Below are positions 830-37,702 of a stretch of DNA of 64,000 nt, in pieces (position 1 is the stretch's first letter; every line of letters begins with the position of its first letter). Both the position numbers and the translations under genes were made by a program. Origin of the DNA: an uncultured Ignavibacteria bacterium. GTDB taxonomy: Bacteria; Bacteroidota; Ignavibacteria; SZUA-365. The notes under the pieces were generated by a model. The model was not told the origin of the DNA and did not search any database. It saw only the letters and a program-made list of their open reading frames with translations. The DNA lies in the NCBI GenBank assembly GCA_913061095.1, contig CAJXVM010000008.1:124001-188000 (forward strand), given 5' to 3'.

Positions 830-933
830 GAGATTCCTGATGTAGATTCGCTCGCGCATACTCCGCGATGGACTAAACCAGACCGGCGATGTGCGTGTCC
901 AAGAGATGCTGTATCCGAGTCATCGAGTCCACC

Positions 934-3759
934 ATGAAACACATCATTACGCTTTTCCTTTTCCTGTCCGTCTGCGCACCGGCCATCGCGCAGCAGCCAC
1001 AGGTCGTTCAGGGACGCATCGTCGGGGATGACGGCACTCCGCTGGCCGGCGCAAACGTACTTCTGCTGCGTCTGCCCGATTCCACCACCGCGGGCGGCGC
1101 CGTTACCGGACCAGACGGCAGTTTCCGCTTCAATACCGTGCGCCGCGGTCGATACACGCTGCGCGCGACCTTCATCGGGTACCGCGCCGAGCACCGCGAC
1201 CTGCGCGTGCAGAACACAGCGGTGTCTCTCGGCAGCGTCACGCTGCACGAACGGAGCATTCCCATGGAGGAAGTCGAGGTCGAAGGTACAGCCCCTATCG
1301 CAGTCCTGAAAGAGGACACCACGGAATTCATCGCCTCCGCCTTCAAGGTGAATCCGGACGCGTCTGCGGAAGACCTCGTGCGCAAGATGCCGGGCATAAC
1401 CGTGAAGGACGGCGAGGTCGAGGCACAGGGCGAAAAAGTGCAGCGCGTGCTCGTGGATAACCGCCCGTTCTTCGGCGACGACGCACGCGCGGTATTACGG
1501 AACATCCCCGCGGAAATCATCTCACGCATCCAGGTGTTCGATCAGCAGAGTGAGCAGGCGCAGTTCACCGGCTTCCGGGATGGAAACGAAGTGAAAGCAA
1601 TGAACATCATCACGCGTGACGCCATCCGGAACGCGCAATTCGGAAAAGTCTACGGCGGATACGGCGAGGATGAACACTACCGTGCCGGGACCGTCCTCAA
1701 CGCGTTCAGCGGTGATACGCGATGGTCCCTGCTCGGGATGACCAACAATGTCAACGAACAGAATTTCGCCTCTGAGGACCTGCTCGGCGTGATGCTCTCA
1801 TCCCGCTTCGGCGGCGGAGGCATGCGCGGTCGCGGACGCGGGATGCGCGGAGGACGTCCGCCGGGCGGTGGCGGCGGCATGCCGAATTTCGGCATGGGCG
1901 ATGTACGCGATTTCATGGTGAATACCACAAACGGCATCGCCACGACACATGCGGTCGGACTGAACTACGTCGATACCTGGGCGGAAACGATTGAGGTCTC
2001 CGGCAGCTATTTCTTCAACCTGAGCGACGCCGACGCGGCCAGCGGTCTCAAGCGGGAATATATCCTTCCTGAGATTCAGGGACAGTTCTACAACGAAACA
2101 ACGGGCGCAAACACCGAAAACCTGAATCATCGGCTGAACCTGAGGCTCGATTACAGGGTCGATTCGCTCAATTCCATTCTCTGGCGGCCGCGCCTCTCCG
2201 TGCAGCAGCACAACGGCACGGAGCTGACCTCCGCGTCGACGGCACTGCAGTCCGCACTGATCAACAGCAGCAGCAGTGATTTCTCATCTGACCTGGCCGG
2301 ACTCTCCTTCGAAAACGAGCTGCTGTGGCGGAGGCGCTTCGCAAAACAGGGCCGGACCATATCACTCGAAATCGAGACCGATTACAATCGCAACGCCGGC
2401 GATAACCGGCTGTATTCCGATTATCTTTCCTTCGGCCGCGACGCTGCCTCAGACACGGTATCCCAGCGTGCGGAACTCGAGAAGCGTGGATGGGAACTGG
2501 GAAGCAGCCTGATGTACACCGAGCCGGTCGGGGGCAGCGGACAACTGATGCTTCGCCATCGCGCCTCGTACAGCAATGACAACTCCGACCGGAAAACCTG
2601 GAACCTGCCCATGCTCACCGGCATGAGCGAAGAACTCGATCCCCTGCTGAGCAATGAATTCACCACGGGATACCTGACCCAGAATGCATCGATCGGTTAC
2701 CGACATCATGACGATCGCTTTGATGCCATGCTGGGCGCGGGGTACCAGTGGGCCGCGCTGGAAAACGAACAGGTCTATCCATCCGCCGCATCGCTCGACC
2801 GCAGCTTCGACGATGTAATGCCATTCGCGATGATGCGCTTCAAATTCGCGCAGGGACGCGACATGCGGCTGTTCTACCGCACGCGCACATCCCCGCCGAG
2901 CGTCGACGATCTGCAGGAAGTGCTCGACAACACGAATCCCCTGCAGCTGAGCATCGGCAACGAAGAACTGCAGCCTGATTACACCCATTTTCTCGGTATG
3001 CGTTACTCCGCCACGAATCCAGCCGCGGGCAGCTATTTCTTTCTGTTCGCCATGGCCTCCTATACGTTCAACGACGTGGGGAACAGCACGGTGTTCGCCT
3101 CGGCGGATACGAGCGTGTTCGGTGGCATCCCGCTGCTGCGTGGCGCGCAGATCACGCGTCCGGTGAACCTCGACGGTGCGTATGCGCTCCGTTCCTACAT
3201 GACTTACGGTCTGCCGGTCTCATTCCTGAAATCCAACCTCAACCTCAATCTGTCGGCCACCTATTCCCGCACGCCGAGCGAGATCAACGGACTTCGCAAT
3301 GAAGCATCGACACCGGCGGCCGGTGCCGGAGTGACGCTGACCAGCAACATCAGTCAGAACCTCGACTTCACGGTCTCGACACAGTCGAATCTCACGTGGA
3401 TCAGAAATTCCCTGCAGGAACGCACAGATACGGATTATTTCACACAGTCCTCCCGGCTGCGCCTGAACTGGATTTTCGGCGGCGGTTTCGTGTTCAGTAC
3501 GGATATGGCACATGAGCATTACAGCGGACTCGCGGAAGGATACAACGACAACGTATTGCTCTGGAACCTGAGCGTCGCGTACAAATTCCTGCCGCGTGAC
3601 CTGGCGGAAATCCGCCTGACGCTGTACGATGTGCTTGAGCAGAACGACAGCATTGTGCGCAATGTGACGGAAACATACATCGAGGATTCACGCACCGCGC
3701 TGCTGCAGCGGTTCGCGCTGCTCACGTTCACGTGGAATATCCGGAATTTCACTCTCTGA
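934..3759 (+). CDS. TonB-receptor-like outer-membrane beta-barrel protein
   Basis: 941 residues. ATG 934 is chosen because a clean signal peptide follows (MKHIITLFLFLSVCAPAIA); the in-frame ATG at 889 only adds a hydrophilic Cys-rich leader. Residues about 22-105 form a carboxypeptidase-regulatory-like Ig fold (V-V-Q-G-R-I-V-G-D-D-G-T-P-L-A-G-A-N-V). Residues about 110-215 form a plug-like domain (D-L-V-R-K-M-P-G-I-T-V; N-R-P-F-F-G-D-D), and the remainder is a long barrel of alternating aromatic strands. This is the architecture of Bacteroidota-type 'outer membrane beta-barrel family' proteins related to TonB-dependent transporters, which take up large substrates. No N-terminal TonB box was identified. 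A Gly/Arg-rich insert (DNA about 1801-1890) lies in an early barrel loop. The substrate is unknown. The gene converges on the S16/LamG gene with only 15 bases between their stops. Confidence 0.85.
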   Translation: MKHIITLFLFLSVCAPAIAQQPQVVQGRIVGDDGTPLAGANVLLLRLPDSTTAGGAVTGPDGSFRFNTVRRGRYTLRATFIGYRAEHRDLRVQNTAVSLGSVTLHERSIPMEEVEVEGTAPIAVLKEDTTEFIASAFKVNPDASAEDLVRKMPGITVKDGEVEAQGEKVQRVLVDNRPFFGDDARAVLRNIPAEIISRIQVFDQQSEQAQFTGFRDGNEVKAMNIITRDAIRNAQFGKVYGGYGEDEHYRAGTVLNAFSGDTRWSLLGMTNNVNEQNFASEDLLGVMLSSRFGGGGMRGRGRGMRGGRPPGGGGGMPNFGMGDVRDFMVNTTNGIATTHAVGLNYVDTWAETIEVSGSYFFNLSDADAASGLKREYILPEIQGQFYNETTGANTENLNHRLNLRLDYRVDSLNSILWRPRLSVQQHNGTELTSASTALQSALINSSSSDFSSDLAGLSFENELLWRRRFAKQGRTISLEIETDYNRNAGDNRLYSDYLSFGRDAASDTVSQRAELEKRGWELGSSLMYTEPVGGSGQLMLRHRASYSNDNSDRKTWNLPMLTGMSEELDPLLSNEFTTGYLTQNASIGYRHHDDRFDAMLGAGYQWAALENEQVYPSAASLDRSFDDVMPFAMMRFKFAQGRDMRLFYRTRTSPPSVDDLQEVLDNTNPLQLSIGNEELQPDYTHFLGMRYSATNPAAGSYFFLFAMASYTFNDVGNSTVFASADTSVFGGIPLLRGAQITRPVNLDGAYALRSYMTYGLPVSFLKSNLNLNLSATYSRTPSEINGLRNEASTPAAGAGVTLTSNISQNLDFTVSTQSNLTWIRNSLQERTDTDYFTQSSRLRLNWIFGGGFVFSTDMAHEHYSGLAEGYNDNVLLWNLSVAYKFLPRDLAEIRLTLYDVLEQNDSIVRNVTETYIEDSRTALLQRFALLTFTWNIRNFTL

Positions 3760-3774: not shown

Positions 3775-6700
3775 TCACTCCCAGGCCCGGATTCTGCGCA
3801 GGTGCATGAGATGTCCGTGAAGCACGTCGGGAAAATTGTTCGTCGCATCGGGTGCACTGTCGAGCGGCCAGTGTGCGAGCAGCCCTTCTTCGGGAATCGA
3901 CCCGCGATACAGCGCCGCGATCTCCGCATCCTCCAGGCGCCGTTCCCATACACAGAAATCCGCCACGGCCCGTGCATTCGAGAGAAGACCGTATGAGCTG
4001 TCGAAATACTTGGTCCGCAGGTGGTTGTATCCATCATAAAAGAAACCCAGCTGCAATCCATAATAGCGGAAGAACGGCCCGCGGGCCAGTGTCTCCGACG
4101 TGATCGTCTTCACGAAGCTTCCGTTGAGGAAGTAGTCCAGCGTTCCGTCCCGGGCGACACGCAGTGCCACGTGATTCCATCCCTCACGGACGCGGACATC
4201 CCTGTATGGTCCTTCCCCCACGGCCACACCATCCGATAGCACCTGTATCCACGCATCCTGATTGGAGACGGCCATCATCACCCGTTCTTCCGGTCCGTCG
4301 TGACGGTACCACAGTGCGTAGCTGCGCGCGGAATCGGACTCCATGAGCTGCTGTGCGCAGTGCAGATAACAGAACGGAGCCAGTTCCGTCGCGGGACGGT
4401 CGAGCGGACCTTCGACGGAACGCACCGGCGGGGCTTCCGAGACCGTTACCGGTGCGGCCGATCGCACGGGAGCCGGTCTGCCATATGGCTCCGCTTCCTG
4501 GGCACTCTTGTATGCGACATTAATGCTTTCCTCGGTGACGTGATCCATGTCCCAGTATCCCCGCAAGCCGGGGGCGCGGGCGTCCACACGCTGCCGCATG
4601 GTTGCGCGGATCTCATCTGCCGAGCGATATCCACGCCAGAGACGGATTTCATCGACGGCGCCGCGGAAATGTCCTCCATGCTCGAATCCGTTGTGATAGG
4701 CGCCAACAGAGACATACGGCCGGAAAATGTTCTCCATGATGAATTCGTCCTCGCGGTCGAAGACCACCACACCGTTGCACAGGGCTGTCACACGTCCCGG
4801 TCCCTCCTCCCGCGGATGCCGGTACGTGAGAGCAAAATGCATCCATTCCCCGGCACGGACATTCGCTTCCTCGGGGATGCGTACGGAAACACCGATACTT
4901 GCGACGCCGATGTGAAGCGTATCATGGCTGAATGTGAAGGCCATATTCTCGATTGCCTGTCCGTCGGGCGGATTGTAGGTGTTGCTGTAGAAGCATCCCG
5001 CCAGTGTATCCGGACGCAGCCACATCTCGACGGTTGCGTCATCCATACCGAAGGCGTAGGACTTCTCACCGAAAACGAGCATGTCGTCCATTCCGTCGAG
5101 CTGCATTGCGTAGCCCGCGGGCTGTGGCGGACCGGCGCTTCCGTGGAGTGCAAGCACATAGCGCTCCTCACCGGAGCCGGCATCGCGCAGCACCAGCCGC
5201 GCGGTCTTCATTCGCCCCGGCCGCACGGGAGCGAACATGACCATCATGCGGAGTTTTTCCGTGGAAGCGATCTGCTGCTGCCCGCCGTTCCAGTTGCAGT
5301 ACCACTCTTCATCATCATCTGATTCCACGGTGATGTCGAGCTCGAGCGGGAAGCGGCCGAAATTGTAGATGTAGAAATTGCGGAAACAGCCGTCGCCAAT
5401 CTCCAGGTCACCGAATGGCACGATTGCGGATTTGTGTTCATCGCCGTCACGGAAAGTCCAGCTGACCTCATCTTTCGGATTGTAGACGATCGAACTGGCT
5501 TCCGGGATTTTCCCCTGCGCCTGTTCCAGATTCGGATAATCGTAGTAATACTTCCAGAGCAGAAAACCGGTATACCCGCCCAGGAGAAGCAGGATGAAGA
5601 TCAGCAGCGCAACGGCATGACGCCGGGAGAATTCGAAAACGCGGTCGGAGATCGCGCGGCGTTCATGGCGGATCACTCCGTCTGCATCAGCGCAGTCGCC
5701 GAGGGTCTCGATGCCATGTACATCGAGCTGCCGTGCGGGATAGCGCTGCTGCAAAGATCGCACGATACGCAGCGCCTCCTCCCTCTGGGCGGCAGCGATG
5801 ACCAGTCTGTCGACGGGAGAAAAAAACGCAACGGCAACCTTTCGCCGAAGCACGTCGGAGGGGAACTGCTGCACACTTCCGTCCGCGTTCAGTCCGCCGC
5901 TGCATGCCATGTGCGCCGCGAGATGCCAGCGTACCTCGCGATTGAAGCCGCGCTGCATATCGATGATCATCAGCAGGGCGGCGCCGAGACCCATGGAGGC
6001 ACCACGAAATTCGGCCCCACGGTCATGGAAGGAAAAATGGTACTCCCTCGGCGGCGGCGTGGAAAAGGAGCGGCGCACGAGGTCGGCTGCGAGACTGGCT
6101 CCGCGCTCGAGCTGCACCTGTGTCTCGGTATTATCCGGAGCAATCTCGCTTGTGAAATGGACATGCATTGCCGAACTCGGACGCGACCGCACATCGAGAC
6201 GCAGCACTGTCCCTGAATCCATGGCGGGATTATCAGACGCATCGAGCAGAACGACACCGACCCCGCCCTCTTCACGGGCATGCCGCCACTGCTGCAGCGC
6301 ACTGTCGATCGGGACGGGCACCGGGATCTCCGGAGGCACCGCGCGCCGCACGTATTGCACGAAGGCATCATGACCGAGCGTATCCGCATTCGAGATCGCG
6401 CTCCAGTCGGCCTCAGAAAGCTCGCGCAGCCGAAATCGCCGCATGCAGAGGTACCCGTGCAGCGCGCGAAACGCGCGCACACAGGCATGCGCGAATATCA
6501 TGCGACCGCAGGCAACGTCACGGATCCGGTCAAACTGTTCGCGGTGCGCGAACCAGCCGTATTCGCAGGCCGCATCGAGAAATCGCAAAATGATATTCCA
6601 CCGTTCAGGCTCGCCTCCGGAGATATAGACATGCTCTGCCAGCCGGGACACACGGCGGACCAGCACGGTGCCATACGAGGTCAGCCAGGGACGCGGCAGC

Positions 6701-6849
6701 GCCTCGGTGTGCGAGAGAAAATCCGTCAGCAGTGAGAAATTTCGTATCGGGGAGGCGGACTGCTCGAGATGCCGCTCCAGAGCGCGGAACGCCATGTCGA
6801 GTTCGATCGGAGTGCGTATGTAGGATTGCGGCCCTTCCCTCGAATCCAT
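3775..6849 (-). CDS. Single-pass membrane protein: Lon-type (S16) protease domain, ASH-like domain, two LamG-like domains
   Basis: 1,024 residues, third gene of an operon, nine bases after the zinc-motif gene; Shine-Dalgarno GAGGCG. Residues 1-190 are helical and unassigned. Residues about 195-395 align by eye with the Lon proteolytic domain: G-A-S-M-G-L-G holds Ser285 at the position of the catalytic Ser in Lon's GPSAG, S-G-G-L-N-A-D-G matches Lon's T-G-E-I-x-x-x-G, and V-L-R-R-K holds Lys337 at the dyad-Lys position of G-G-L-K-E-K. There is no AAA+ ATPase module. A transmembrane helix at about 411-432 is preceded by Arg-Arg and predicts N-inside topology. Residues about 470-572 resemble an ASH/HYDIN-type beta sandwich (P-F-G-D-L-E-I-G...N-F-G-R-F-P-L-E-L). 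About 580-770 and 835-1010 are concanavalin/LamG-like (M-Q-L-D-G-M-D-D; W-L-R-P; D-E-I-R-L-W). I infer a membrane receptor-protease; activity is unproven. Confidence 0.75.
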   Translation of the reverse strand: MDSREGPQSYIRTPIELDMAFRALERHLEQSASPIRNFSLLTDFLSHTEALPRPWLTSYGTVLVRRVSRLAEHVYISGGEPERWNIILRFLDAACEYGWFAHREQFDRIRDVACGRMIFAHACVRAFRALHGYLCMRRFRLRELSEADWSAISNADTLGHDAFVQYVRRAVPPEIPVPVPIDSALQQWRHAREEGGVGVVLLDASDNPAMDSGTVLRLDVRSRPSSAMHVHFTSEIAPDNTETQVQLERGASLAADLVRRSFSTPPPREYHFSFHDRGAEFRGASMGLGAALLMIIDMQRGFNREVRWHLAAHMACSGGLNADGSVQQFPSDVLRRKVAVAFFSPVDRLVIAAAQREEALRIVRSLQQRYPARQLDVHGIETLGDCADADGVIRHERRAISDRVFEFSRRHAVALLIFILLLLGGYTGFLLWKYYYDYPNLEQAQGKIPEASSIVYNPKDEVSWTFRDGDEHKSAIVPFGDLEIGDGCFRNFYIYNFGRFPLELDITVESDDDEEWYCNWNGGQQQIASTEKLRMMVMFAPVRPGRMKTARLVLRDAGSGEERYVLALHGSAGPPQPAGYAMQLDGMDDMLVFGEKSYAFGMDDATVEMWLRPDTLAGCFYSNTYNPPDGQAIENMAFTFSHDTLHIGVASIGVSVRIPEEANVRAGEWMHFALTYRHPREEGPGRVTALCNGVVVFDREDEFIMENIFRPYVSVGAYHNGFEHGGHFRGAVDEIRLWRGYRSADEIRATMRQRVDARAPGLRGYWDMDHVTEESINVAYKSAQEAEPYGRPAPVRSAAPVTVSEAPPVRSVEGPLDRPATELAPFCYLHCAQQLMESDSARSYALWYRHDGPEERVMMAVSNQDAWIQVLSDGVAVGEGPYRDVRVREGWNHVALRVARDGTLDYFLNGSFVKTITSETLARGPFFRYYGLQLGFFYDGYNHLRTKYFDSSYGLLSNARAVADFCVWERRLEDAEIAALYRGSIPEEGLLAHWPLDSAPDATNNFPDVLHGHLMHLRRIRAWE

Positions 6850-6858
6850 TGATACGCC

Positions 6859-7326
6859 TCAGCCCCGATCCTCGATATCCACCCGCATGGGTTCGATTTC
6901 AATTGAGGACGGTCCAATATCGAAGCGTCCCTGCGCATCCGGCGTGAAAACATCCTGCAGTCCGCTGAAACGGATGCGCAGGGCTGCGTAGCGCTCGGGA
7001 TCGCCGATGCAGAATCCGGTCAGCCGCTGTTTCTCCGTTTCCTCAATGACGCGAATAACCAGCGCACCGTCTTCGAGATACCAGGTCTGTCTCCAGCGCT
7101 GGTCTTCGTCCGTATCGGCTTCGGACTGCGCTGCAAGCCGGAACGACGAATCTCCAGGGTGTGTCCCGGCTCGCTGTTCCTGCGGAGCGCCGAGGAGCAT
7201 TTCCCGGAGAGCAACGTACTGTTCGCGGCAGAACGCGCATTCATACAGATGCGGATCGTCCTCTCCGCTCCGTGCAATCTGCACCAGGCGGAGTTCAGAC
7301 AGATGTGATATGTTCTGCTCGGTCAT
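6859..7326 (-). CDS. Small soluble protein with anti-sigma-type zinc motif (ZAS-like)
   Basis: 155 residues, 24 bases downstream of the sigma-like gene and nine bases upstream of the S16/LamG gene, so cotranscribed. The N-terminus carries His26-x3-Cys30-x2-Cys33 (H-L-Y-E-C-A-F-C), the exact spacing of the zinc-binding anti-sigma (ZAS) motif, within a helical segment typical of anti-sigma N-domains. Residues about 85-155 are predicted beta-rich and end in an acidic tail. No transmembrane segment or signal peptide is present, so it should be cytoplasmic. The inferred role is to bind and restrain the upstream sigma-like protein. An alternative is a zinc-finger adaptor with another partner. Confidence 0.55.
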   Translation of the reverse strand: MTEQNISHLSELRLVQIARSGEDDPHLYECAFCREQYVALREMLLGAPQEQRAGTHPGDSSFRLAAQSEADTDEDQRWRQTWYLEDGALVIRVIEETEKQRLTGFCIGDPERYAALRIRFSGLQDVFTPDAQGRFDIGPSSIEIEPMRVDIEDRG

Positions 7327-7350: not shown

Positions 7351-8355
7351 TTATTCGAGCCTCCGACGAACATTGGTGAAAACCGTGCGAACAATATATT
7401 CGTACGTATTACGATAGGATTTGCGATACCGCTGCTGTGTGAGACCGGGAAGAACCTGACGCAGATACGTAAAATGACCGAGGGCATCGTCACGCTTCAG
7501 ATCATCCACATACAGCTGGATCGCACGAAGCATGGCCTCAGCCTCCATGGTGCTGAGTTTGTGCCGCTGTACGTACTTCTCATCGACCCAGTTTCGCGCT
7601 TCGGCAAGCGCCGCGTTCAGTGCCCGGTCTGCCATGATGGAATCATCCACGTCTTCCGCCGTCATGGCAGCGTCGCTTTCAACGAGGTGTCGCGACTGCA
7701 GCATGCCATGGGTCCAGTCAAGGATGTCGTGTTCATACACCGCCTGGCGCACACCGGGGATACGCGCCACGGCATCGAGGGCGGCGTGCAGCACACTGCG
7801 CACGGGATGCCCGTCAAGCGTTGTCGCGGCGAGCGCGGAGCGCAGCGTGTCGGCGGGGACGGCAGGCAGATGGAGCTGCGGATCACGATCGGCGGCGGCA
7901 TACCAGTAACCGCTGACGCTGTCAATTCGCACGACAGCCGGAGAAGCCACGGTATACCGTCTCAGCGCGCGGAGCAGGCGCGACTGCAGCGGATTGATAT
8001 CCATGAAAAAACGGGCGAGGTTCAGGCGTGCGGTACGGTTGACGACGGCAACAAATGCACTGTCCGCATCGAACGCCTCCCCCTCCTCATCCCGAATTCC
8101 GCGAAGTGCGCTTTTGAGCCTGCCGAGCACTTCACCGTCAAGTTCCGATACCAGTTCGGCGACCAGATCGTATGCCAGGTCGTCGATGGAAAGCCCTGTC
8201 GGACCGAGATGGTACCCGCGCTGCCAGATCAGCCATTGAATATAGCGACGCGCGCACTCGACGGTGCGGTCGACGATATGATCGACACGGTGAGCGTTGA
8301 GCTCGTCATTGAGCAGACGCGCGATCAGGTCCGATGTTGCGGGCGGTGCGTGCAT
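7351..8355 (-). CDS. Large sigma-70-like regulator (tentative), first gene of S16/LamG operon
   Basis: 334 residues, mostly helical and soluble. Residues about 50-75 (L-S-I-D-D-L-A-Y-D-L-V-A-E-L-V) resemble the D-L-x-Q-E-x-F helix of sigma region 2. A later helix (A-V-V-N-R-T-A-R-L-N-L-A-R-F) could match the region 2 DNA-contact helix. The basic C-terminal segment (L-T-Q-Q-R-Y-R-K-S-Y-R) could be a helix-turn-helix. At 334 residues it is much longer than ECF sigma factors (about 180-200), and region 4 is not clear. The sigma call leans on the next gene, which has an anti-sigma type zinc motif. It may instead be an uncharacterised DNA-binding regulator. A promoter-like sequence lies just upstream of the start. 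Confidence 0.4.
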   Translation of the reverse strand: MHAPPATSDLIARLLNDELNAHRVDHIVDRTVECARRYIQWLIWQRGYHLGPTGLSIDDLAYDLVAELVSELDGEVLGRLKSALRGIRDEEGEAFDADSAFVAVVNRTARLNLARFFMDINPLQSRLLRALRRYTVASPAVVRIDSVSGYWYAAADRDPQLHLPAVPADTLRSALAATTLDGHPVRSVLHAALDAVARIPGVRQAVYEHDILDWTHGMLQSRHLVESDAAMTAEDVDDSIMADRALNAALAEARNWVDEKYVQRHKLSTMEAEAMLRAIQLYVDDLKRDDALGHFTYLRQVLPGLTQQRYRKSYRNTYEYIVRTVFTNVRRRLE

Positions 8356-14783: not shown

Positions 14784-17700
14784 TTATTTCACCAGCATCA
14801 TCTTCCGGAGCTGGTGGAAGATCTGTCCGCTGTCTCCGGTCGCGATGATGCGATAGAGATAGATACCGGACGGAAGATCGCGGGCAGCATTGCCGCTGTC
14901 GAATGTGACGGCGTGCGTGCCTGCAGGGACCTCCTCGTTCACCAGGACGGCGACTTCCTCACCCATGGAGTTGTGTACTGTCAGGTGGACAGTGCTGCGC
15001 TCTGGCAGGGTGTAGGTGATCGTCGTCACCGGATTGAACGGATTCGGATGGTTCTGATCCAATGCAAAGCCGGTCGGCGTCAGATCGAGACGGACATCCT
15101 TCGGCGGCGGCATCGCGTAGAATCCGGCAAGGAAGCGCGCTTCGTCGAAGCCCTTGTTGATGGCGTCGAGAGCGGCCACGATGTCGGACAGCGACACACC
15201 GGTGAAGGACGTGCCGGCAAGAGCCTGGTTGGCCATGTCGAGAAGATCCTGCGGCGTCACATTCATTCCGTTCGAGCCGAGCTCGCTGAGCACGTTGGGC
15301 GGGAAGAAGAAGAACTGGTACGTCGTATCCGGCATGTCGTCCGCGTCGCCGCAGATGCCGTTGCCGTATATCGATGCCGCAGTGCGCATCCAGGGCGTCG
15401 TCGGAGGCGGCAGGTACATCTTCGTCAGGTTCGAATCCAGGCGCATGTTGAGTGCGAAGGTGATCGTCTGCGACAGGAGGATGTTCCGGAATCTGCCTCT
15501 CTTCAGCGGGAGATTGCCCGGGGTGATGTTGCAGTTGTTGTTGTAGCTGTAGTCGTGGGTGAGCGCCTTTGCAGGACCACCACCCGGAAGGTTGCCGATG
15601 AGACAGGACGCATCGCCGTGGAGGATTTCGAAGGAGCCGGAGCCCTTCACTCCGACGATGAGTGTGTCACCGGAGAGCAGCAGCGAGTCGATCAGCGTCT
15701 GCGTTCCCTGTCCGGTTCCGCAGTACTTGCCGCCGCTGTTACCGTAGAAGCCCTGCGTCAGGGTCTCGAACTGGTTGCACAGTTCGACAATGGTCTGACT
15801 GACAACGACGGATGCGTTGCCGCAGGTGTCGACCGCCTGCCAGCTTCGCGTGTGATAGTAGATACCCGCGACGTACGTCGTCGTGTCAGACACGATGACC
15901 AGTGCGGGATCGTTGTCACAGTTGTCGCTGTACGTCGGGTCGGTGAAGACGATGGCCTCGCGGCATGCCACCGTGTCCTGCGGAGCCGCCGTGATCGTCG
16001 GGGCTTCGTCGTCGACGACGGTGATGGTCTGGCTGACAGTGGTGGATTCGTTGCCGCATCCGTCCACGGCCTTCCAGGTGCGCGTGACGCTGTAGTTCTG
16101 CGGGCAGCTGCCCGGCGTCGTCACGTCGCTGCCGACCTGCATGACCGTCGGGGTACCGCAGTTGTCCGTCGCCGTCGGCGTACCGAACACCGGTGTGGAA
16201 GCACAGTCGATGGTCGTATCGGCCGGGACAAAGGTGAACGTCGGCGGTGTGCCGTCGATGGTCGTGTTGTAGGTCACGGTTGTGTCATTGCCACAGTCGT
16301 CGGTCGCGGTCACGGTGATGACGGCGTTGCAGTCACCGACCGTGGAAGCGGAGAGCGTCACACCGCTGCAGACATCGCTGGATGTCGTGGCGGCGATGGC
16401 GGCTGCTTCGGCTGCCGCTTCCGTCGGATAACAGCTGCTGATGCTGCCGGCCGAAATCGAAGGCGGTGTGGTGTCTTCAATGGTGAAGGTGGCGGTCGTG
16501 GAGTCCACGTTGCCGCAGTCGTCGGTGGCGTAGAACGTCACCGTCGCACTGCCCGTGGCACCACAGTCGTCACTGAGTCCGGTGAAGTTGTTCGTCCACT
16601 GGAAGTTCGAGCAGACATCGCTGGCCACGGCACCGCCGTTGGAGGCGAGCCATGCGTTCAGCGCTGCCGTGTTGCCCGCACCGTCGCACTCGACCGTCTG
16701 ATCACTGGCCGCGGTCGTGATGTCCGGCGGCGTGGTGTCTTCGATCTCGAAGCGCGCGGTGGTGGAATCGACATTGCCGCAGTCGTCGGTGGCATAGAAT
16801 GTTACATCGACGTAGCCGCTGCCGCCGCAGCCCGGCACGAAGTTATTCGCGTCGCAATTGTTGCTCCACGAGAAATTGGAGCAGACATCGCTTGCGACAG
16901 CCCCGCCGTTGTTGGCGAGCCAGCTGTTCAGGTCGGTGAGATTTCCGTTGCCGTCGCACTCGACCGTCGTGTCAGCGGCTGCCGTCGTGATATCCGGCGG
17001 CGTCGTGTCCACGATGGTGAAGCGGGCGGTAGTGGAATCCACGTTGCTGCAGGCGTCGGTGGCGTAGAAGATCACGTCCACGTAGCCGGTTCCGCCGCAC
17101 AGCGGGACGAAATTGTTGGCGTCGTAGTTGTTGCTCCACGTGATCGCCGAGCAGATGTCGGTTGCCGTCGCACCGCCATTGTTGGCGAGCCAGCTGTTCA
17201 GATCCGTGGTGTTGCCGTTTCCGTCGCACTCGACCGTCGTGTCGGAAGCCGCGACGACTGTCGGAGGCGTCGTATCGACGATGGTGAAGCGTGCGGTGGT
17301 GGAATCGACGTTGTTGCAGTCGTCGGTGGCGTAGAAGGTCACGTCCACGTAGCCGGCGCCGCCACAGGTCGGGACGAAGTTCGCTGCGTCGTAGTTGTTG
17401 CTCCAGCTGAAGTTGGAACAGACATCGCTGGCGATCGCGCCGCCCTGGTTGCTGAGCCAGTTATTGAGGTCCGTGAGATTGCCGTTGCCGTCACACTCGA
17501 CCGTGGTGTCGGCCGCTGCCGTCGTGATATCCGGCGGCGTCGTGTCCTCGATCGTGAAGCGTGCGCTGGTGGAATCAACGTTGTTGCAGTCGTCGGTGGC
17601 GTAGAATGTCACGTCAACGTAACCGGCATTGCCGCAGGTCGACACGAAGTTCGCCGCGTCGTAATTGTTGCTCCAGCTGAAATCGGAGCAGACATCGCTG

Positions 17701-20700
17701 GCAACCGCACCACCCTGGTTGTTGAGCCAGTTGTTGAGATCCGTAAGGTTGCCGTTGCCGTCGCACTCAACCGTCGTGTCGGCTGCTGCCGTCGTGATAT
17801 CCGGCGGCGTCGTATCCTCGATCGTGAAGCGTGCGGTAGTGGAGTCGACGTTATTGCAGGCGTCCGTGGCGTAGAAGGTCACGTCCACATATCCGGCATT
17901 TCCGCAGGTCGGCACGAAGTTCGCCGCGATGTAGTTGTTCGACCACGAGAAGTCCGAACACACATCGGTGGCAACTGCGCCGGCCTGATGGGCAAGCCAG
18001 TTGTTGAGGTCCGTCAGGTTGCCATTGCCGTCACACTCGACCGTGGTATCTGCGGCTGCCGTCGTGATGGACGGGGGCGTGGTATCCTCGATCGTGAAGC
18101 GTGCGGTGGTGGAGTCGACGTTGTTGCAATCATCGGTGGCGTAGAACGTCACGTCCACGTATCCGGCACCGCCACAGGTCGATACGAAGTTCGCCGCGTC
18201 GTAGTTGTTGCTCCAGCTGAAGTTGGAACAGACATCGCTGGCGACCGCACCGCCCTGGTTGTTGAGCCAGTTGTTGAGGTCCGTGATGTTGCCGTTGCCG
18301 TCGCATTCGACGGTGGTGTCAGCCGCTGCGGTGGTTATGGACGGAGGCGTCGTGTCTTCGATCGTGAATCGTGCGGTCGTGGAATCCACATTGTTGCACT
18401 CATCGGTCGCGTAGAAGGTCACGTCGACGTATCCGGCACCGCCGCAGGTCGGCATGAAGTTGTTGGCGTCGTAATTGTTCGTCCAGGTCACGCCCGAGCA
18501 GGCGTCGCTGGCCGTGGCGCCGCCGTGATTGGCGAGCCAGTTGTTGAGATCGGTCGTGTTTCCGTTTCCGTCACACTCGACGGTGGTGTCAGACGCGGCG
18601 ACAATGGTCGGCGGCGTGGTGTCCACGATCGTGAACGTCGCGGAAGTAGAGTCCACATTGCCGCACTCATCGGTCGCGTAGAACGTGACCGTGGCGCTGC
18701 CGGTGGCACCGCACAGGTCGGAAAGACCCGTGAAGTCGTTGCTCCAGCTCACCGAACCGCACTGGTCGGACGCCATCGCGCCACCGTTGCTGTTCAGCCA
18801 GTCATTGAGCGCCGTGGTATTGCCGTTGCCGTCGCACTCCACGGTGGAATCGGACGCGGCGACCGAGATGGTCGGCGGCGTCGTGTCCACGATCGTGAAT
18901 GTCGCGGATGTGGAATCCACGTTGCCGCAGTCATCGGTGGCATAGAAGGTCACCATCGCACTGCCGGTGGCGCCGCAGAGATCGGAAAGCACCGTGAAAT
19001 TGTTGCTCCACGTGACCGATCCGCAGGCGTCCGTTGCCGTTGCGCCGCCGTTGGCGTTGAGCCAGGCATTCAGCGCCGTGGTATTGCCGTTGCCGTCACA
19101 CTCGACCGTCGAGTCGGACGCTGCGGTCACGACCGGTGGTGTGGTGTCGACGACGAAAATCGTCTGCGAGCAGGTGTCGGCGTTGTTGTAAATGTCCGTT
19201 GCGACCCACGTGCGCGTGACACTGTACTCGTTGGCGCAGCTGCCGGGTGTCGTGTTGGTGCTCAGAATGGTGACGACCGGGTTCTGATCGCAGTTGTCCA
19301 CTGCCGTGGGCGTGGTGAACGGCAGCGTTCCGGGTGCCGGACATTCGATCGTCGTATCCGCGCTGCAGGTGATCACCGGCGGCTCAATGTCGCGCACGTT
19401 CACCGTCAGCGAGCAGGTGCTCTGGCAGAAGGGGAAGGTGGTTTCGGTGATCGTCAGCGTCAGCGTGAAGGTCCCGACGTTATTGCCGGCATCGACGCTG
19501 ACGGACTGTCCGTTAGTCGCACCGTTGATGCTGCCGTTGCCGCTGATGCTCCACGCGTACGTGAAAGCACCGTTCGGCGCGTTAAAGATGTTGCCCGTGG
19601 ATCCCGGGCAGACATCGCCGACCGGTGTGATCGAACAGGTCGGAAGCGCCTTGACGGTCACAGTCTGCGAGACGGTCTCGCTGCAACCGTAGGTGTCCGT
19701 GACGGTCAGGGTAAGCGTGTAGCTGCCGTTTGTCCCGGCGTCAACGGTAACGGTGTCGGTGTTCGTTGCGGAGGTGATGGTGCCGTTGCCCGAAATGGAC
19801 CAGCTCCATGTGACGATGGAATCGATGGGCAACGGCGAATTCGCATCGAACATCGCATAGTAGATGTTGCCCACGGAGTTCTCACAGACAAGAATATCAC
19901 CTTCGATATCGAAATCAGGCACCGGGAACACGTTCACCGTGCCCGAGCATCCGGATGATGTGAGTCCGTTCGCATCCGTCAGCGTCACCGTATAGGTGCC
20001 CGCGGCGGAAGCGGGAACGACGATGCTCTGCGTGGTCGCACTGAAATTGTTCGGTCCCGACCAGAGATAGGTGTACGGCGGAGTGCCCTGCGCGATGCGC
20101 TGGGCCGTCAACGTCACCTGCGACTCGTCGCAGATCGTCGTGTCGGCGGGATACACGGCACAGACCGGCGCCGGAATGTGATTGCCAAAATTGATATTCG
20201 CGACCGTTGTCGCATTCAATAGATCGACTTCCCAGGAAAACGGGCCATATCCCCCAAGCACGGCAGGTGCCGGGGTATTCACACCGTCGATATCCGTACC
20301 GGTGGAATTCGCGTCCGGATAGGTCTGCACCCATTCCGAGGGCGGGATCTGCGCGAATGCCGGTGCGGCGTTCGTATACCCCGAGGCGTTTCCGGTCGTG
20401 GGGGCGCTGCCGAGTTCCTCGCTCACGAGATAGATCGACTGCGGCAGTCCGGTCAGACTCCAGCTTCCGGTATTATCAGTATATGCCGTATCCGAAATCG
20501 GTACGCCGCCAATGATGGTTCCAATATAGATCGGCCAGCCATCCAGCGATGACTCTCCGCCGTCCTGCGTCTGGTTTCCGTTGATATCGTGGAATTTCAG
20601 ACCGGAAAGCTGTCCCGCCGGCTGCGGCGGCACAGGGATGGGCACGGTCTTGTTTCCGAGTGTCAGGTAGGTCTGTCCGGATGATCCGGAGACGAAACCG

Positions 20701-21464
20701 GAGCCCTGCCGCTGATCATTCTGGTACGCAGTGTATGCGTAGGCATATCCTCCCCAGAAATCCGTCGGCGGCTGATTGAGCTGCGTCTGCAGGGAATTGT
20801 CCCAGATGAAGGTCTGGGAGAGATGCAGATGAAAATAAATGTAAAAGGTCGTGGAATTCGGAACGTTATTGAGTCCTCCGTAGGCGTTGATGATATCCTG
20901 ACGGGTGATGGTGAAGCAGTGTGTTCCGTCCGTCGGCCCGCCCTGCAGCCCATTGGTGTTCAGGTTCTGCTGCGAGGTGTCAATTGCCAGCTTCTCATAG
21001 CCGGACCAGAGATACTCGTTTCCCCACGACGTGATTCCCTGATTGTTCTGCGCCTGCTCAAGCTGTGGTCGCGCCGTCAAGGAAAATGCCGTGCCCAGAG
21101 TATCCGACGGCCATCCCTGGCTGTTGCTCAGCCCGGTCGTCCCGATCTGAATGGCACGGACGAGATCCACGAAACGGGCATTGAGATTCCCCGCCGTGAA
21201 GTCGTAGCAGATGGTGATGTCTGAGAAATTCTGGTTGTTGATGTTGACATTCTTGAGCTCGAGCAGGTAGGGAACCCACTCGCCCTCGTTCCATGTATTG
21301 CCGAGATTACCGGTTGACCACCCGACGTTGAGTGTTCCGTTGCCGGTGGTATCGGCACGGAAGCCCTCATAGCGGGCGACCCCCCAGCCGGTTTGCGCCT
21401 GTGCCGACATGCCAAAACACGCCAGCAGCACAAACACGGTCAGGACCGTGGTACATCGTTTCAT
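14784..21464 (-). CDS. Giant HYR/Ig-repeat surface adhesin with T9SS sorting domain
   Basis: 2,226 residues from ATG 21464, chosen for the strong GAGGAGGAG site and signal peptide (MKRCTTVLTVFVLLACFGMSAQA). The order is: a unique N-terminal region (about 25-280); an SdrD-B-like domain (about 285-390; L-K-F-H-D-I-N-G-N); PKD/SprB-like Ig domains (about 430-700); an array of ten HYR-like repeats (about 775-1665; each with D-T-T-P-P and E-C-D-G-N-G-N); more HYR-like units; a unique Cys-containing region (about 1900-2100); and the T9SS domain (about 2133-2226; N-H-P-N-P-F-N-P, ending K-M-M-L-V-K). The frequent paired Cys suggest disulphide-stabilised domains. It should be a long stalk-like surface or secreted protein, probably adhesive. 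It is divergent from the polysaccharide cassette and is followed by a strong terminator. Confidence 0.9.
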   Translation of the reverse strand: MKRCTTVLTVFVLLACFGMSAQAQTGWGVARYEGFRADTTGNGTLNVGWSTGNLGNTWNEGEWVPYLLELKNVNINNQNFSDITICYDFTAGNLNARFVDLVRAIQIGTTGLSNSQGWPSDTLGTAFSLTARPQLEQAQNNQGITSWGNEYLWSGYEKLAIDTSQQNLNTNGLQGGPTDGTHCFTITRQDIINAYGGLNNVPNSTTFYIYFHLHLSQTFIWDNSLQTQLNQPPTDFWGGYAYAYTAYQNDQRQGSGFVSGSSGQTYLTLGNKTVPIPVPPQPAGQLSGLKFHDINGNQTQDGGESSLDGWPIYIGTIIGGVPISDTAYTDNTGSWSLTGLPQSIYLVSEELGSAPTTGNASGYTNAAPAFAQIPPSEWVQTYPDANSTGTDIDGVNTPAPAVLGGYGPFSWEVDLLNATTVANINFGNHIPAPVCAVYPADTTICDESQVTLTAQRIAQGTPPYTYLWSGPNNFSATTQSIVVPASAAGTYTVTLTDANGLTSSGCSGTVNVFPVPDFDIEGDILVCENSVGNIYYAMFDANSPLPIDSIVTWSWSISGNGTITSATNTDTVTVDAGTNGSYTLTLTVTDTYGCSETVSQTVTVKALPTCSITPVGDVCPGSTGNIFNAPNGAFTYAWSISGNGSINGATNGQSVSVDAGNNVGTFTLTLTITETTFPFCQSTCSLTVNVRDIEPPVITCSADTTIECPAPGTLPFTTPTAVDNCDQNPVVTILSTNTTPGSCANEYSVTRTWVATDIYNNADTCSQTIFVVDTTPPVVTAASDSTVECDGNGNTTALNAWLNANGGATATDACGSVTWSNNFTVLSDLCGATGSAMVTFYATDDCGNVDSTSATFTIVDTTPPTISVAASDSTVECDGNGNTTALNDWLNSNGGAMASDQCGSVSWSNDFTGLSDLCGATGSATVTFYATDECGNVDSTSATFTIVDTTPPTIVAASDTTVECDGNGNTTDLNNWLANHGGATASDACSGVTWTNNYDANNFMPTCGGAGYVDVTFYATDECNNVDSTTARFTIEDTTPPSITTAAADTTVECDGNGNITDLNNWLNNQGGAVASDVCSNFSWSNNYDAANFVSTCGGAGYVDVTFYATDDCNNVDSTTARFTIEDTTPPSITTAAADTTVECDGNGNLTDLNNWLAHQAGAVATDVCSDFSWSNNYIAANFVPTCGNAGYVDVTFYATDACNNVDSTTARFTIEDTTPPDITTAAADTTVECDGNGNLTDLNNWLNNQGGAVASDVCSDFSWSNNYDAANFVSTCGNAGYVDVTFYATDDCNNVDSTSARFTIEDTTPPDITTAAADTTVECDGNGNLTDLNNWLSNQGGAIASDVCSNFSWSNNYDAANFVPTCGGAGYVDVTFYATDDCNNVDSTTARFTIVDTTPPTVVAASDTTVECDGNGNTTDLNSWLANNGGATATDICSAITWSNNYDANNFVPLCGGTGYVDVIFYATDACSNVDSTTARFTIVDTTPPDITTAAADTTVECDGNGNLTDLNSWLANNGGAVASDVCSNFSWSNNCDANNFVPGCGGSGYVDVTFYATDDCGNVDSTTARFEIEDTTPPDITTAASDQTVECDGAGNTAALNAWLASNGGAVASDVCSNFQWTNNFTGLSDDCGATGSATVTFYATDDCGNVDSTTATFTIEDTTPPSISAGSISSCYPTEAAAEAAAIAATTSSDVCSGVTLSASTVGDCNAVITVTATDDCGNDTTVTYNTTIDGTPPTFTFVPADTTIDCASTPVFGTPTATDNCGTPTVMQVGSDVTTPGSCPQNYSVTRTWKAVDGCGNESTTVSQTITVVDDEAPTITAAPQDTVACREAIVFTDPTYSDNCDNDPALVIVSDTTTYVAGIYYHTRSWQAVDTCGNASVVVSQTIVELCNQFETLTQGFYGNSGGKYCGTGQGTQTLIDSLLLSGDTLIVGVKGSGSFEILHGDASCLIGNLPGGGPAKALTHDYSYNNNCNITPGNLPLKRGRFRNILLSQTITFALNMRLDSNLTKMYLPPPTTPWMRTAASIYGNGICGDADDMPDTTYQFFFFPPNVLSELGSNGMNVTPQDLLDMANQALAGTSFTGVSLSDIVAALDAINKGFDEARFLAGFYAMPPPKDVRLDLTPTGFALDQNHPNPFNPVTTITYTLPERSTVHLTVHNSMGEEVAVLVNEEVPAGTHAVTFDSGNAARDLPSGIYLYRIIATGDSGQIFHQLRKMMLVK
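16470..19140 (-). repeat. Ten in-frame HYR-coding tandem repeats of about 265-270 bp
   Basis: Ten consecutive units of about 90 codons inside the adhesin gene, marked by the recurring V-E-C-D-G-[NA]-G-N motif at roughly 270-bp steps (near 19095, 18835, 18570, 18300, 18030, 17760, 17490, 17220, 16950 and 16685). The inner units are nearly identical in DNA as well as protein, so recombination could change copy number. Confidence 0.9.
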
Positions 21465-21937
21465 TCTTCTCCTCCTCATACTGTATGTAAAGTGGTTGAA
21501 CATGGTTGAAGCTCATGATTCCAGGCTGTATGACCGCAGCCCAGAGGCGTGGCGGGATTTCTCTCCACAAAATTCCACCACATTCATGCTCTCTCGATGT
21601 CGATGGCGTCCAGCATGAAACGTTTCCGGATGCTTCGCTCCGATAAACGGGAGTGCGATTGAGCGCATCCTGTTGCTGAAATTTCCCTCGCAGGATCAAA
21701 TATCACCTGAGTGTGCGTCCCGCACAGACCGGGATCGACCTATTTCGTATAAGACGACTCACAATTATCCGGATTTGAAAACAAAAAGTCAAGCATTTTC
21801 GAAAAAAAATCCATCGCAGATTTTTCTGCCGCGGAAAGGACACTGCGGAATTCTCCCTTTCGCATTGAATAGCAAGGCAAAACCTGCTAATATTGAAAGA
21901 TTATGAGCCGACGTGTCCCTGAGTTGAGCTGAACTGC
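21465..21937. other. Divergent intergenic region upstream of the adhesin and the polysaccharide cassette
   Basis: 473 bases between the starts of the HYR adhesin (-) and wzz-like (+) genes. The right half is AT-rich with runs of A and T (about 21770-21850). No gene, tRNA or repeat was found. A sigma-70-like promoter for the cassette is listed separately. Confidence 0.6.
21865..21893 (+). promoter_or_regulatory. Candidate promoter for the polysaccharide cassette
   Basis: TTGAAT (21865-21870) and TAATAT (21888-21893) are separated by exactly 17 bases, about 45 bases before the ATG at 21938. This is the only good -35/-10 pair I saw in the region. It fits a sigma-70-type promoter, with the caution that lineage-specific promoters may differ. 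Confidence 0.4.
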
Positions 21938-31548: not shown

Positions 31549-34500
31549 TTACTTGAGCAGCAGCATCAGCCGCTCCTTGACGAACTCGCGGTTGCTGACG
31601 CGCGAGGTGGCATGGATTCGGTAGATGTAGCTGCCGGAAGCGACCTTGCTTCCATGTGTGTTCGCAGTGGCATTCCACACGGCACTGTGCATGCCGGCCG
31701 GAACCTCCGTGTCGACGAGCGTCGTGATGGTCTTTCCGAGCGTGTTGATAATGCTCAGGCGGACATGGCTCGCCTCCGGCACGAAGTACTGGATGGTCGT
31801 GGTCGGATTGAACGGGTTGGGGTAGTTTTCATAGAGTGCGTATTCAGATCCCGTCACCGAGGGTTCACCGCCCTGCTCCGCAGAACCCTTCGAGAAGATG
31901 TTCAGCGTGCAGAAGGCCTCGCAGGCGGCGTTGTTCGGATCGTTGGGATCCCAGTTCGCATCGCGCACCTGCAGCGTAATGGTGCCGTTGTAATTGCACG
32001 GGATGTCGAACATCGGTCCCATGTGCTGTGACGGCATCCAGAGGTACGAGTATGGCGGGGTGCCGCCACTCACCGTCGCCGACACCGTGCGGATACCGTT
32101 GATGCATGGCGATACGTTGCACACCACGTTGAGCGGTGGTGGTTCGGGAACGTGGATGGTCACCGTATCCGTGCAGTTGTTCGCATCGGTCACGATGAAC
32201 GTGTACGTACCCGCCTTGTAGGTGAACGTTCCGACACCGCTGTACGGGGGCGTGCCGCCCCACGCCGACACGGTAATGTCGGAGAACCCTCCATGACAGA
32301 GAACTGGCGTCGCGGCTGCGGTCGCATAGACCGGCGGCGGAGAGGCGATCGTTGCCTGGACGGTATCCGCGCATCCGTTGGCATCGGTCACGATAAACGT
32401 ATACGTGCCGGCCAGACGCTTGAAATCGCCCGTGCCCGAATACGGCGTCGTACCACCGATCGCCGTGATTCTGATGACCGCGCTGTCGCGTCCGCAGCTG
32501 ACGGACGGCGCATTCGCGTTCGCCTTCAGCTCGGGCGGTTCGGTAATTGTGATCGTCGTGCTGGCGTTGCAGCCCCTGGAGTCAGTGACAACATAGGTGT
32601 GTGTGCCCGCCAGTGCGGTGAACGTCCCGGTACCGGTGTACGGCGGTGTACCACCCGTTGCCGTGACCGTAACGGTGGAGAGATCTCCGTGACAGAGAAT
32701 CGGCGTCGCGATGGCCGCAACGAAGAGCGGCGGCGGATCGTCGAGTGTGATCGATACCGAGTCCTTGCAGCCGTTGCCGTCCGTGACGACGAAGGTATGC
32801 GTGCCCGGACCACGGGTGAAGCTTCCGACACCGTTGTAGGGCGGCGTGCCGCCGGACGCGGTGACGGTGATCGTTGTGGTTCCGCCATTACATGCGATGG
32901 GTGCAGCGGTAATCGATGCCACGAGATCGGGCGGCTCGGTGATCGTCACCTCGACCGTATCGGTGCAATTGTTCGCATCGGACACGACAAAGGTGTACGT
33001 ACCAGCGCCCTTGTAGAAGATGCCGACACCGGAATACGGCGGCGTACCGCCCCAGCCGCTGACTGTGATCGTGGAAAGATCACCATGGCAAAGAATGGGA
33101 GTGGCGTTTGCTGCCGCGTAAATTGGCGGCGGTCCCGTGACCGTCACCTGCACCGAGTCCTTGCAGCCGTTCGCATCCTCGACGGTAAACGAATGCGTGC
33201 CCAGGGTACGGCGGAAGGTACCGGTACCGGTGTACGGAGAGGTACCGCCGGAGGCCGAGACCGTAACCGTCGCGGTGTCCCGACCGCAGGTCAGCGTTGT
33301 TGCATTGGCCGTCAGTGTCAGGAGTGGCGGTTCCGTGATGGTGATGCTCACCGACTCCGAGCAGCCGTTGGCGTCCGTGACGGTAAAGGTGTACGAACCG
33401 GCAGGTTTCAGGAATACGCCATCCCCGGCGTACGGCGGAGTGCCGCCCGAGGCCGTGATGGTCACCGTGGAGCTGCCGCCGTTGCAGAGAATCGGCGTCG
33501 CCGTGATACCGACGATCAGCGTCGGCGGCTCGGTGACCGTCACTTTGACCGTATCAGTACAGCCGTTGTCATCCGTGACCATGTAGGTGTAGGTACCTGC
33601 GCCGACCTGGAACGTCCCGGTTCCGGTGTATGGCAGTGTGCCGCCGATGGCCGATACGGTGATCGTTGTGGTTCCGCCATTACAGGGAATTGGCGGGACG
33701 TTTGCAGATGCCACAAGTTTCGGCGGTTCCGTGATCGTCACCGACGCTATGGCCGTGCAGTTGTTGGCATCGGTGACCACGAAATTATAGGTACCCGGAC
33801 CGCGCGTATAGGTCGTCACACCCGTATACGGTGGTGTTCCGCCGGTGGCGGTCACGGTCACCGTGGAGCTGCCGCCGTTGCAGAGAATCGGCGTCGCGCT
33901 TGCACTTGCGGTCAGCGCCTGCGACGGCTGTGTCAGCGTGACGCTTGTCGAAGCCTGACAGCCGTTCGCATCCGTCACCGTGAATGTGTGCGTACCGGCT
34001 GTTTTCGAGAACGTGCCCGTGCCCGTATACGGCGGGGTGCCACCGGTGGCGGTCACGGTGACGGTTCCCGTACCGCCGTAGCAGTCGATCTGGGACGAAA
34101 CCGCCGCACTGATACTGACGGCGGATGACGGCTCGGTCAGCGTCACTGTCGTGGTTGTCGTGCAGTTGTTGGCGTCCGTGACCGTAAACGTGTAGGTTCC
34201 GGCACTCTTCGTAAACGTGCCCGTTCCGCTGTACGGCGGCGTGCCGCCGGAAGCGGTCACGGTCACCGTGCCGGTGCCGCCATAACACATGATCGGCGAT
34301 GTCACCGTGGCGGAAGCGGTCAGCGCGTTCGCCGGCTGCGTGATCGTCAATGTGGTCGACTCCATGCAGCCATTGGCGTCGGTGACCGTGAAAGTGTACG
34401 TACCGGCGCTCTTCGTGAATGTTCCCGTTCCCGCGTAGGGTGGTGTGCCGCCGGTGGCGGAGACGGTAACCGTCGCTGTGCCGCCGTAGCAGTCGATCGC

Positions 34501-37278: not shown

Positions 37279-37702
37279 GGCGCACCTTTCCTTAATTGGT
37301 GAATCGCATGAATCCACATTCGGGCAGACGGGATTCGTCCTTTTTTAGGCTCACCACAAAGCTAGGTTGGCAACCTTTCAGGAGATTGAATATCACATGA
37401 CAATTCCCTTTCAATCGGCTTACAATTCTGAAAGGAAGTTCGGATGCTTCTATCCTCCCATAGATCATCCGAATTGGCGCATTCATGCTCCATCAGGAGG
37501 GATCCGGATTCTCATGCAGCAGTCGCGCTGCCGTGGCATGCCGCAGCCCAAAGGCATCCCGAGGCCGGCAGGATGCTCTCTTTATTGTGGGGAAACCCTC
37601 ACACCCCGCATTCTACCCGGGTAATATTCAATTTTACCCGGGTAATATTATATTTTACCCGGGTAAAAGCAGATTTTTACCCGGGTAATACTTTGGAGGA
37701 CA
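37279..37702. other. Upstream region of the SprB adhesin
   Basis: 424 bases with no gene. It holds an AGGTTG/CAACCT inverted repeat (37364-37376), a CCTTTCA/TGAAAGG inverted repeat (37407-37413 and 37429-37435) and the phased ACCCGGGT array listed next. These suggest a complex regulatory region for the adhesin. Confidence 0.6.
37614..37687. promoter_or_regulatory. Four helically phased ACCCGGGT palindromes
   Basis: Cores at 37615-37622, 37636-37643, 37657-37664 and 37679-37686, with spacing 21, 21 and 22 bases (two helical turns). Each core is flanked by TA, and copy 3 extends to the 16-base palindrome TTTTACCCGGGTAAAA. The linkers are pure A/T-rich except one. The array sits 15 bases beyond the stop of the BNR gene (37703) and about 335 bases upstream of the SprB adhesin start. 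It is most like an operator array for a dimeric repressor; it could also pair as RNA hairpins and help termination. Confidence 0.75.

Follow-up and report, generated by a model that had tools for sequence, protein, structure and literature searches.

The window, a 64,000-nucleotide stretch of DNA, encodes a putative receptor-protease of 1024 amino acids as the last gene of a three-gene operon. We consider it probable that this is a transmembrane protein in which a LamG sensor (LamG or FG-GAP across the family) governs a cytoplasmic Lon-like protease, and that the protease cleaves a co-encoded protein, P2, so freeing a second one, P3. The extracytoplasmic LamG (elsewhere FG-GAP) sensor would perceive a signal, which would activate the ATP-independent Ser-Lys protease across a single transmembrane helix, probably by clustering. 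The activated protease would then cleave P2, a soluble ZAS anti-sigma-like protein, and this cleavage would release P3, which once free would alter gene expression. Within this scheme we infer P2 to be the substrate, P2 and P3 to bind each other and P3 to be the released regulator, and we likewise infer the nature of the signal.

The original prediction was narrower, namely an AAA-less Lon-type catalytic domain that retains both dyad residues and shares its chain with a transmembrane helix and lectin-like domains. The operon, the anti-sigma-like partner and the domain swap described below are more informative than that fusion.

Domain architecture and topology

From its N terminus the protease consists of an N-terminal region, the Lon-like domain, a transmembrane helix, an ASH-like domain and two LamG domains. 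The features of the protein and its operon are as follows.

3775..6849, minus strand: putative membrane-anchored Lon-like protease, 1024 aa (ORF call)
6295..6849, minus strand: N-terminal region, residues 1-185 (aligned across the protease family)
5650..6258, minus strand: Lon (S16)-type proteolytic domain, predicted, about residues 198-400 (hhalign and PDB profile matches)
5995..5997, minus strand: Ser285 codon, predicted catalytic (within GASMGLG; aligned to Lon Ser)
5839..5841, minus strand: Lys337 codon, predicted catalytic (within VLRRK; aligned to Lon Lys)
5557..5613, minus strand: transmembrane helix, residues 413-431 (hydropathy and charge bias)
5095..5496, minus strand: ASH/Cep192-D4-like beta domain, about residues 452-585 (approximate, transferred by homology)
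4609..5046, minus strand: first LamG (Laminin_G_3), residues 602-747 (Pfam E 3.8e-13 for the protein)
3820..4362, minus strand: second LamG, about residues 830-1010 (approximate; limits estimated from the sequence)
6859..7326, minus strand: P2, 155 aa, soluble, with an N-terminal ZAS anti-sigma-type domain and a C-terminal beta-rich domain (hhalign, zinc motif)
7351..8355, minus strand: P3, 334 aa, candidate regulated factor (conserved partner)

LamG is the sole match of the window protease in Pfam and NCBIfam scans, with Laminin_G_3 found by Pfam in two stretches; residues 1-185 match nothing in either collection. Since these scans see LamG alone, the Lon claim had only the motif reading as its footing and relatives were needed to assess it. 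Relatives also supply the ASH-like assignment, through Cep192_D4 matches in two of them (L041 and L054).

Hydropathy places a hydrophobic helix directly C-terminal of the Lon-like domain in the window protease and most relatives. Positive charge is in excess on the Lon side of this helix in nearly all members examined, which puts the protease on the cytoplasmic side of the membrane and LamG or FG-GAP on the outer side; the predicted topology is therefore a cytoplasmic Lon-like domain and an extracytoplasmic sensor. Together with the profile comparisons described below, hydropathy, charge bias and Pfam support the proposed presence of a Lon-type domain, a transmembrane helix and lectin-like LamG in one chain. 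A single-sequence AlphaFold2 model of residues 174-443 is of low confidence (pLDDT 51); the proposed structural comparison is replaced here by homology to solved Lon P-domains, in which the dyad is aligned.

The Lon-type domain and its dyad

The region at about residues 198-400 is well supported, by profile comparison, as a real Lon (S16)-type domain with an intact dyad. A profile of the Lon-like domain matched 30 Lon proteolytic domains in hhalign at 98.1% (E 1.1e-13, 157 columns), aligning Ser285 with the catalytic Ser of Lon and Lys337 with its catalytic Lys, while the controls (reversed and shuffled Lon profiles, and neighbour families) reached at most 0.5% in the same comparison. When PDB sequences were searched with the family profile, Lon P-domains ranked first (best A. 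fulgidus 1z0e, 8.5e-10), and the dyad was aligned here too. The two residues lie in ORF 3775-6849 where they had been assigned, Ser285 within GASMGLG and Lys337 within VLRRK, and their correspondence to the Lon dyad is upheld by these matches. Both are invariant in 39/39 relatives in the class, and in 49/49 when other families of the phylum are included; because most neighbouring positions vary, this is far from chance.

The dyad residues are 52 apart in the window protease and in all members but one. The contrasting figure of 43 given for E. coli Lon recurs in all 11 Lon proteases of the class with a readable motif, and in the Lon alignment the difference is accounted for by two insertions between Ser and Lys, one of 7 residues and one of 2. 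The segment CSGGLNADGSV, which had been likened to the TGEI strand of Lon, aligns with MTGEITLRGQV.

Pfam does not detect the Lon domain in the window protease itself and finds Lon_C in 5 of 18 single relatives (best E 1.1e-5). A relative, L054, is above the Lon_C cut-off (21.2 versus 21.1 bits) and carries Lon_C, an ASH-like domain and LamG domains in a single chain. No AAA+ module was matched by Pfam or NCBIfam in the window protease or the scanned relatives, as the term AAA-less had implied. Two candidates from the same genome for closer Lon-fold relatives, RadA-like and ComM-like proteins, were rejected; they were unmatched at 0.8% in a single-sequence comparison in which Lon and an AAA+ Lon-like paralogue reached 82-87%. 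The protein is presumably proteolytically active.

Family extent and distribution

Of the 294 genomes of the class, 53 contain homologues of the first 448 residues of the protease, and the Lon-like domain profile finds members in 58. Further members occur in other families of the phylum, where true members score well above the matches near 20 bits, which are probably ordinary Lon or Lon-like proteases. Family members are mostly 700-1050 aa long. Two scans of viral contigs found no relatives, and the one match among plasmids is through LamG alone. The predicted architecture, a cytoplasmic Lon-like domain, one transmembrane helix and an outer LamG or FG-GAP sensor, appears to be undescribed; we found no earlier description of this protease family in the open-access literature.

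The P3-P2-protease operon

The P3 and P2 genes lie upstream of the protease gene, which ends the operon. Loci were picked from matches, so that the following counts describe those loci rather than a random sample: P3, P2 and protease are contiguous in this order at 26 of 41, across many families of the phylum, and P3 and/or P2 is within 6 kb of the protease at 35 of 41. The 6 loci of 41 with neither P2 nor P3 nearby count against the receptor-protease explanation. By genome, P3 is present in 56/58 that bear the protease versus 108/294 overall (Fisher 2.7e-27, a value that ignores shared ancestry). Two loci (L134 and L136) have tandem protease copies with one P2 and one P3 in common; between such copies the Lon-like domain is best conserved and the sensors differ more.

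Two further loci deserve record. The genome of the window has a second, diverged P3-P2-protease operon (L042, 6134-10972), whose protease is 34% identical to the window protease over the first 448 residues. At L050 (8886-9881) P3 appears to be divided between two neighbouring ORFs, the cause being either a frameshift or a fault in the assembly.

P2 has a ZAS-like anti-sigma-type domain at its N terminus, as judged from profile matches and the zinc motif, and hydropathy shows no transmembrane helix in it. The residues of an H...HxxxCxxC zinc motif (H8, H26, C30 and C33) are invariant in 11 close P2 proteins; these ligands are missing in some distant P2 proteins, which counts against our favoured explanation. 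In hhalign the P2 family profile gave 93.8% (E 1.8e-7) against zf-HC2 proteins of the class and a profile of close P2 proteins only gave 77.5%, with shuffled controls at or below 0.3%.

P3 was compared with sigma factors of its own genome by profile-profile methods in three rounds, using 14 to 51 P3 sequences. No similarity to sigma regions 2 and 4 was detectable, and identification of P3 as a sigma factor was rejected at hhalign 0.3-0.5%, no better than the reversed control. P3 profiles match nothing in Pfam or among PDB chains. NCBIfam gives only stray matches (SigW 0.023, ShbA 0.051), which are no evidence by themselves, and an AlphaFold2 model of P3 built from two sequences is of low confidence (pLDDT 50). 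That P3 has no detectable sigma-factor similarity counts against the favoured explanation at its output step, in which P3 would act on gene expression. P3 is possibly a highly divergent sigma factor.

Domain swap and competing explanations

Twenty loci (L183-L202) were taken from genomes that have P3 and lack the protease. At 17 of these 20, the gene after P3 encodes a protein of ~440-590 aa whose N terminus resembles P2, and most of these fusion proteins have a detectable transmembrane helix near residue 105-140. Their outer domain matches the FG-GAP sensor of the protease family at 100% in hhalign (E 4.5e-54), and their N terminus matches P2 at 97.8% and zf-HC2 proteins at 95.7%. At the level of sequence, then, the sensor is joined either to the ZAS domain directly or to the protease, in which case ZAS is a separate soluble protein. 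It is mainly because the same sensor alternates between ZAS and protease that P2 is proposed as the substrate, and the contrast between ZAS-TM-sensor on the one hand and ZAS plus protease-TM-sensor on the other offers a direct way to test what the protease does.

Proteases of the S16 family are mostly quality-control enzymes. This general knowledge, and the want of recognisable transcription-factor features in P3, would suit a membrane-bound quality-control protease whose operon partners are adaptors or inhibitors, with no transcription factor freed. We regard this as unlikely, given that the protease has no AAA+ unfoldase, is fused to variable outer sensor domains, is linked to a ZAS protein and replaced elsewhere by ZAS-TM-sensor fusions, and co-occurs with P3 in 56 of 58 genomes. 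It is quite unlikely that P3 is instead the substrate, destroyed by the protease while P2 shields or presents it: P3 is indeed the most constant partner, and operon linkage is silent on which partner is cut, but in the protease-free architecture the sensor is attached to ZAS, an arrangement suggesting that ZAS is what is controlled. Least probable is a Lon-like domain that only regulates or binds, with P2 controlled by conformational change and not cleavage; the ZAS-TM-sensor protein does work without this protease in the other architecture, but a Ser and a Lys invariant in 49 diverged members are hard to explain without catalysis.

The receptor-protease that cleaves P2 may also be read more broadly, as a mode of transmembrane signalling widespread in this phylum. 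In it an outer sensor would directly switch a cytoplasmic, ATP-independent Lon-like protease, P2 would be destroyed, and the freed P3 would represent a transcription factor of a new class, one that either has no kinship with sigma factors or has diverged from them to an extreme degree. We put this forward tentatively, as rather less than an even chance.

Comparison with known systems

CalpL cleaves the anti-sigma factor CalpT, which is bound to the ECF sigma factor CalpS, in a type III CRISPR-associated system where its sensor, an intracellular SAVED domain, detects cA4 (PMC11417357). There an AAA-less Lon protease cuts an anti-sigma factor, which gives the proposed mechanism a working precedent. 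The operon resembles CalpL-CalpT-CalpS in grouping the gene of an AAA-less Lon-type protease that has a putative sensor with genes for an anti-sigma-type protein and for a candidate regulated factor. The sensor, however, is predicted to lie outside the membrane, neither Pfam nor NCBIfam gave a match to SAVED, and P3, unlike CalpS, is not recognisable as a sigma factor.

The YlbL family (PDZ-Lon_C) likewise comprises membrane proteins that carry Lon_C and lack AAA+, but YlbL has a PDZ domain and is linked to coaD and rsmD (PMC6411480), in place of LamG or FG-GAP and of P2 and P3. LonA and LonB (S16) share the homologous proteolytic domain with its Ser-Lys dyad; they have an AAA+ unfoldase in the same chain and a spacing of 43, as against no AAA+ and 52. 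Pairs of ECF sigma factors and membrane ZAS anti-sigma factors resemble the operon in the ZAS domain, in the factor gene preceding the inhibitor gene and in the outer signal, which for the operon is a prediction. Such pairs are subject to RseP-type regulated proteolysis, whereas in the operon the putative inhibitor is a soluble protein and sensing would fall to the protease.

If the receptor-protease explanation is true, signalling by proteolysis would proceed in one step from a membrane receptor, dispensing with the usual site-1/site-2 cascade. It would further suggest a more general Lon-anti-sigma design, with the Calp system of CRISPR as one instance, and P3 would be a new regulator family, to which the searched libraries assign no function.

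Other features of the window

Several repeats were noted elsewhere in the window. At 626-827, upstream of a 956-aa ORF (889-3759), a 14-bp unit, TGCGCTTTGCACTC, is repeated in tandem about 15 times. A 2239-aa ORF (14784-21503, minus strand) holds ~8 copies of a 270-bp tandem repeat at 16462-18683, and a 1922-aa ORF (31549-37317, minus strand) holds ~10 copies of a 204-bp tandem repeat at 33827-35925. Upstream of the latter ORF, at 37610-37690, are ~4 copies of a 21-bp unit with the palindrome TTACCCGGGTAA, which looks like an operator array.
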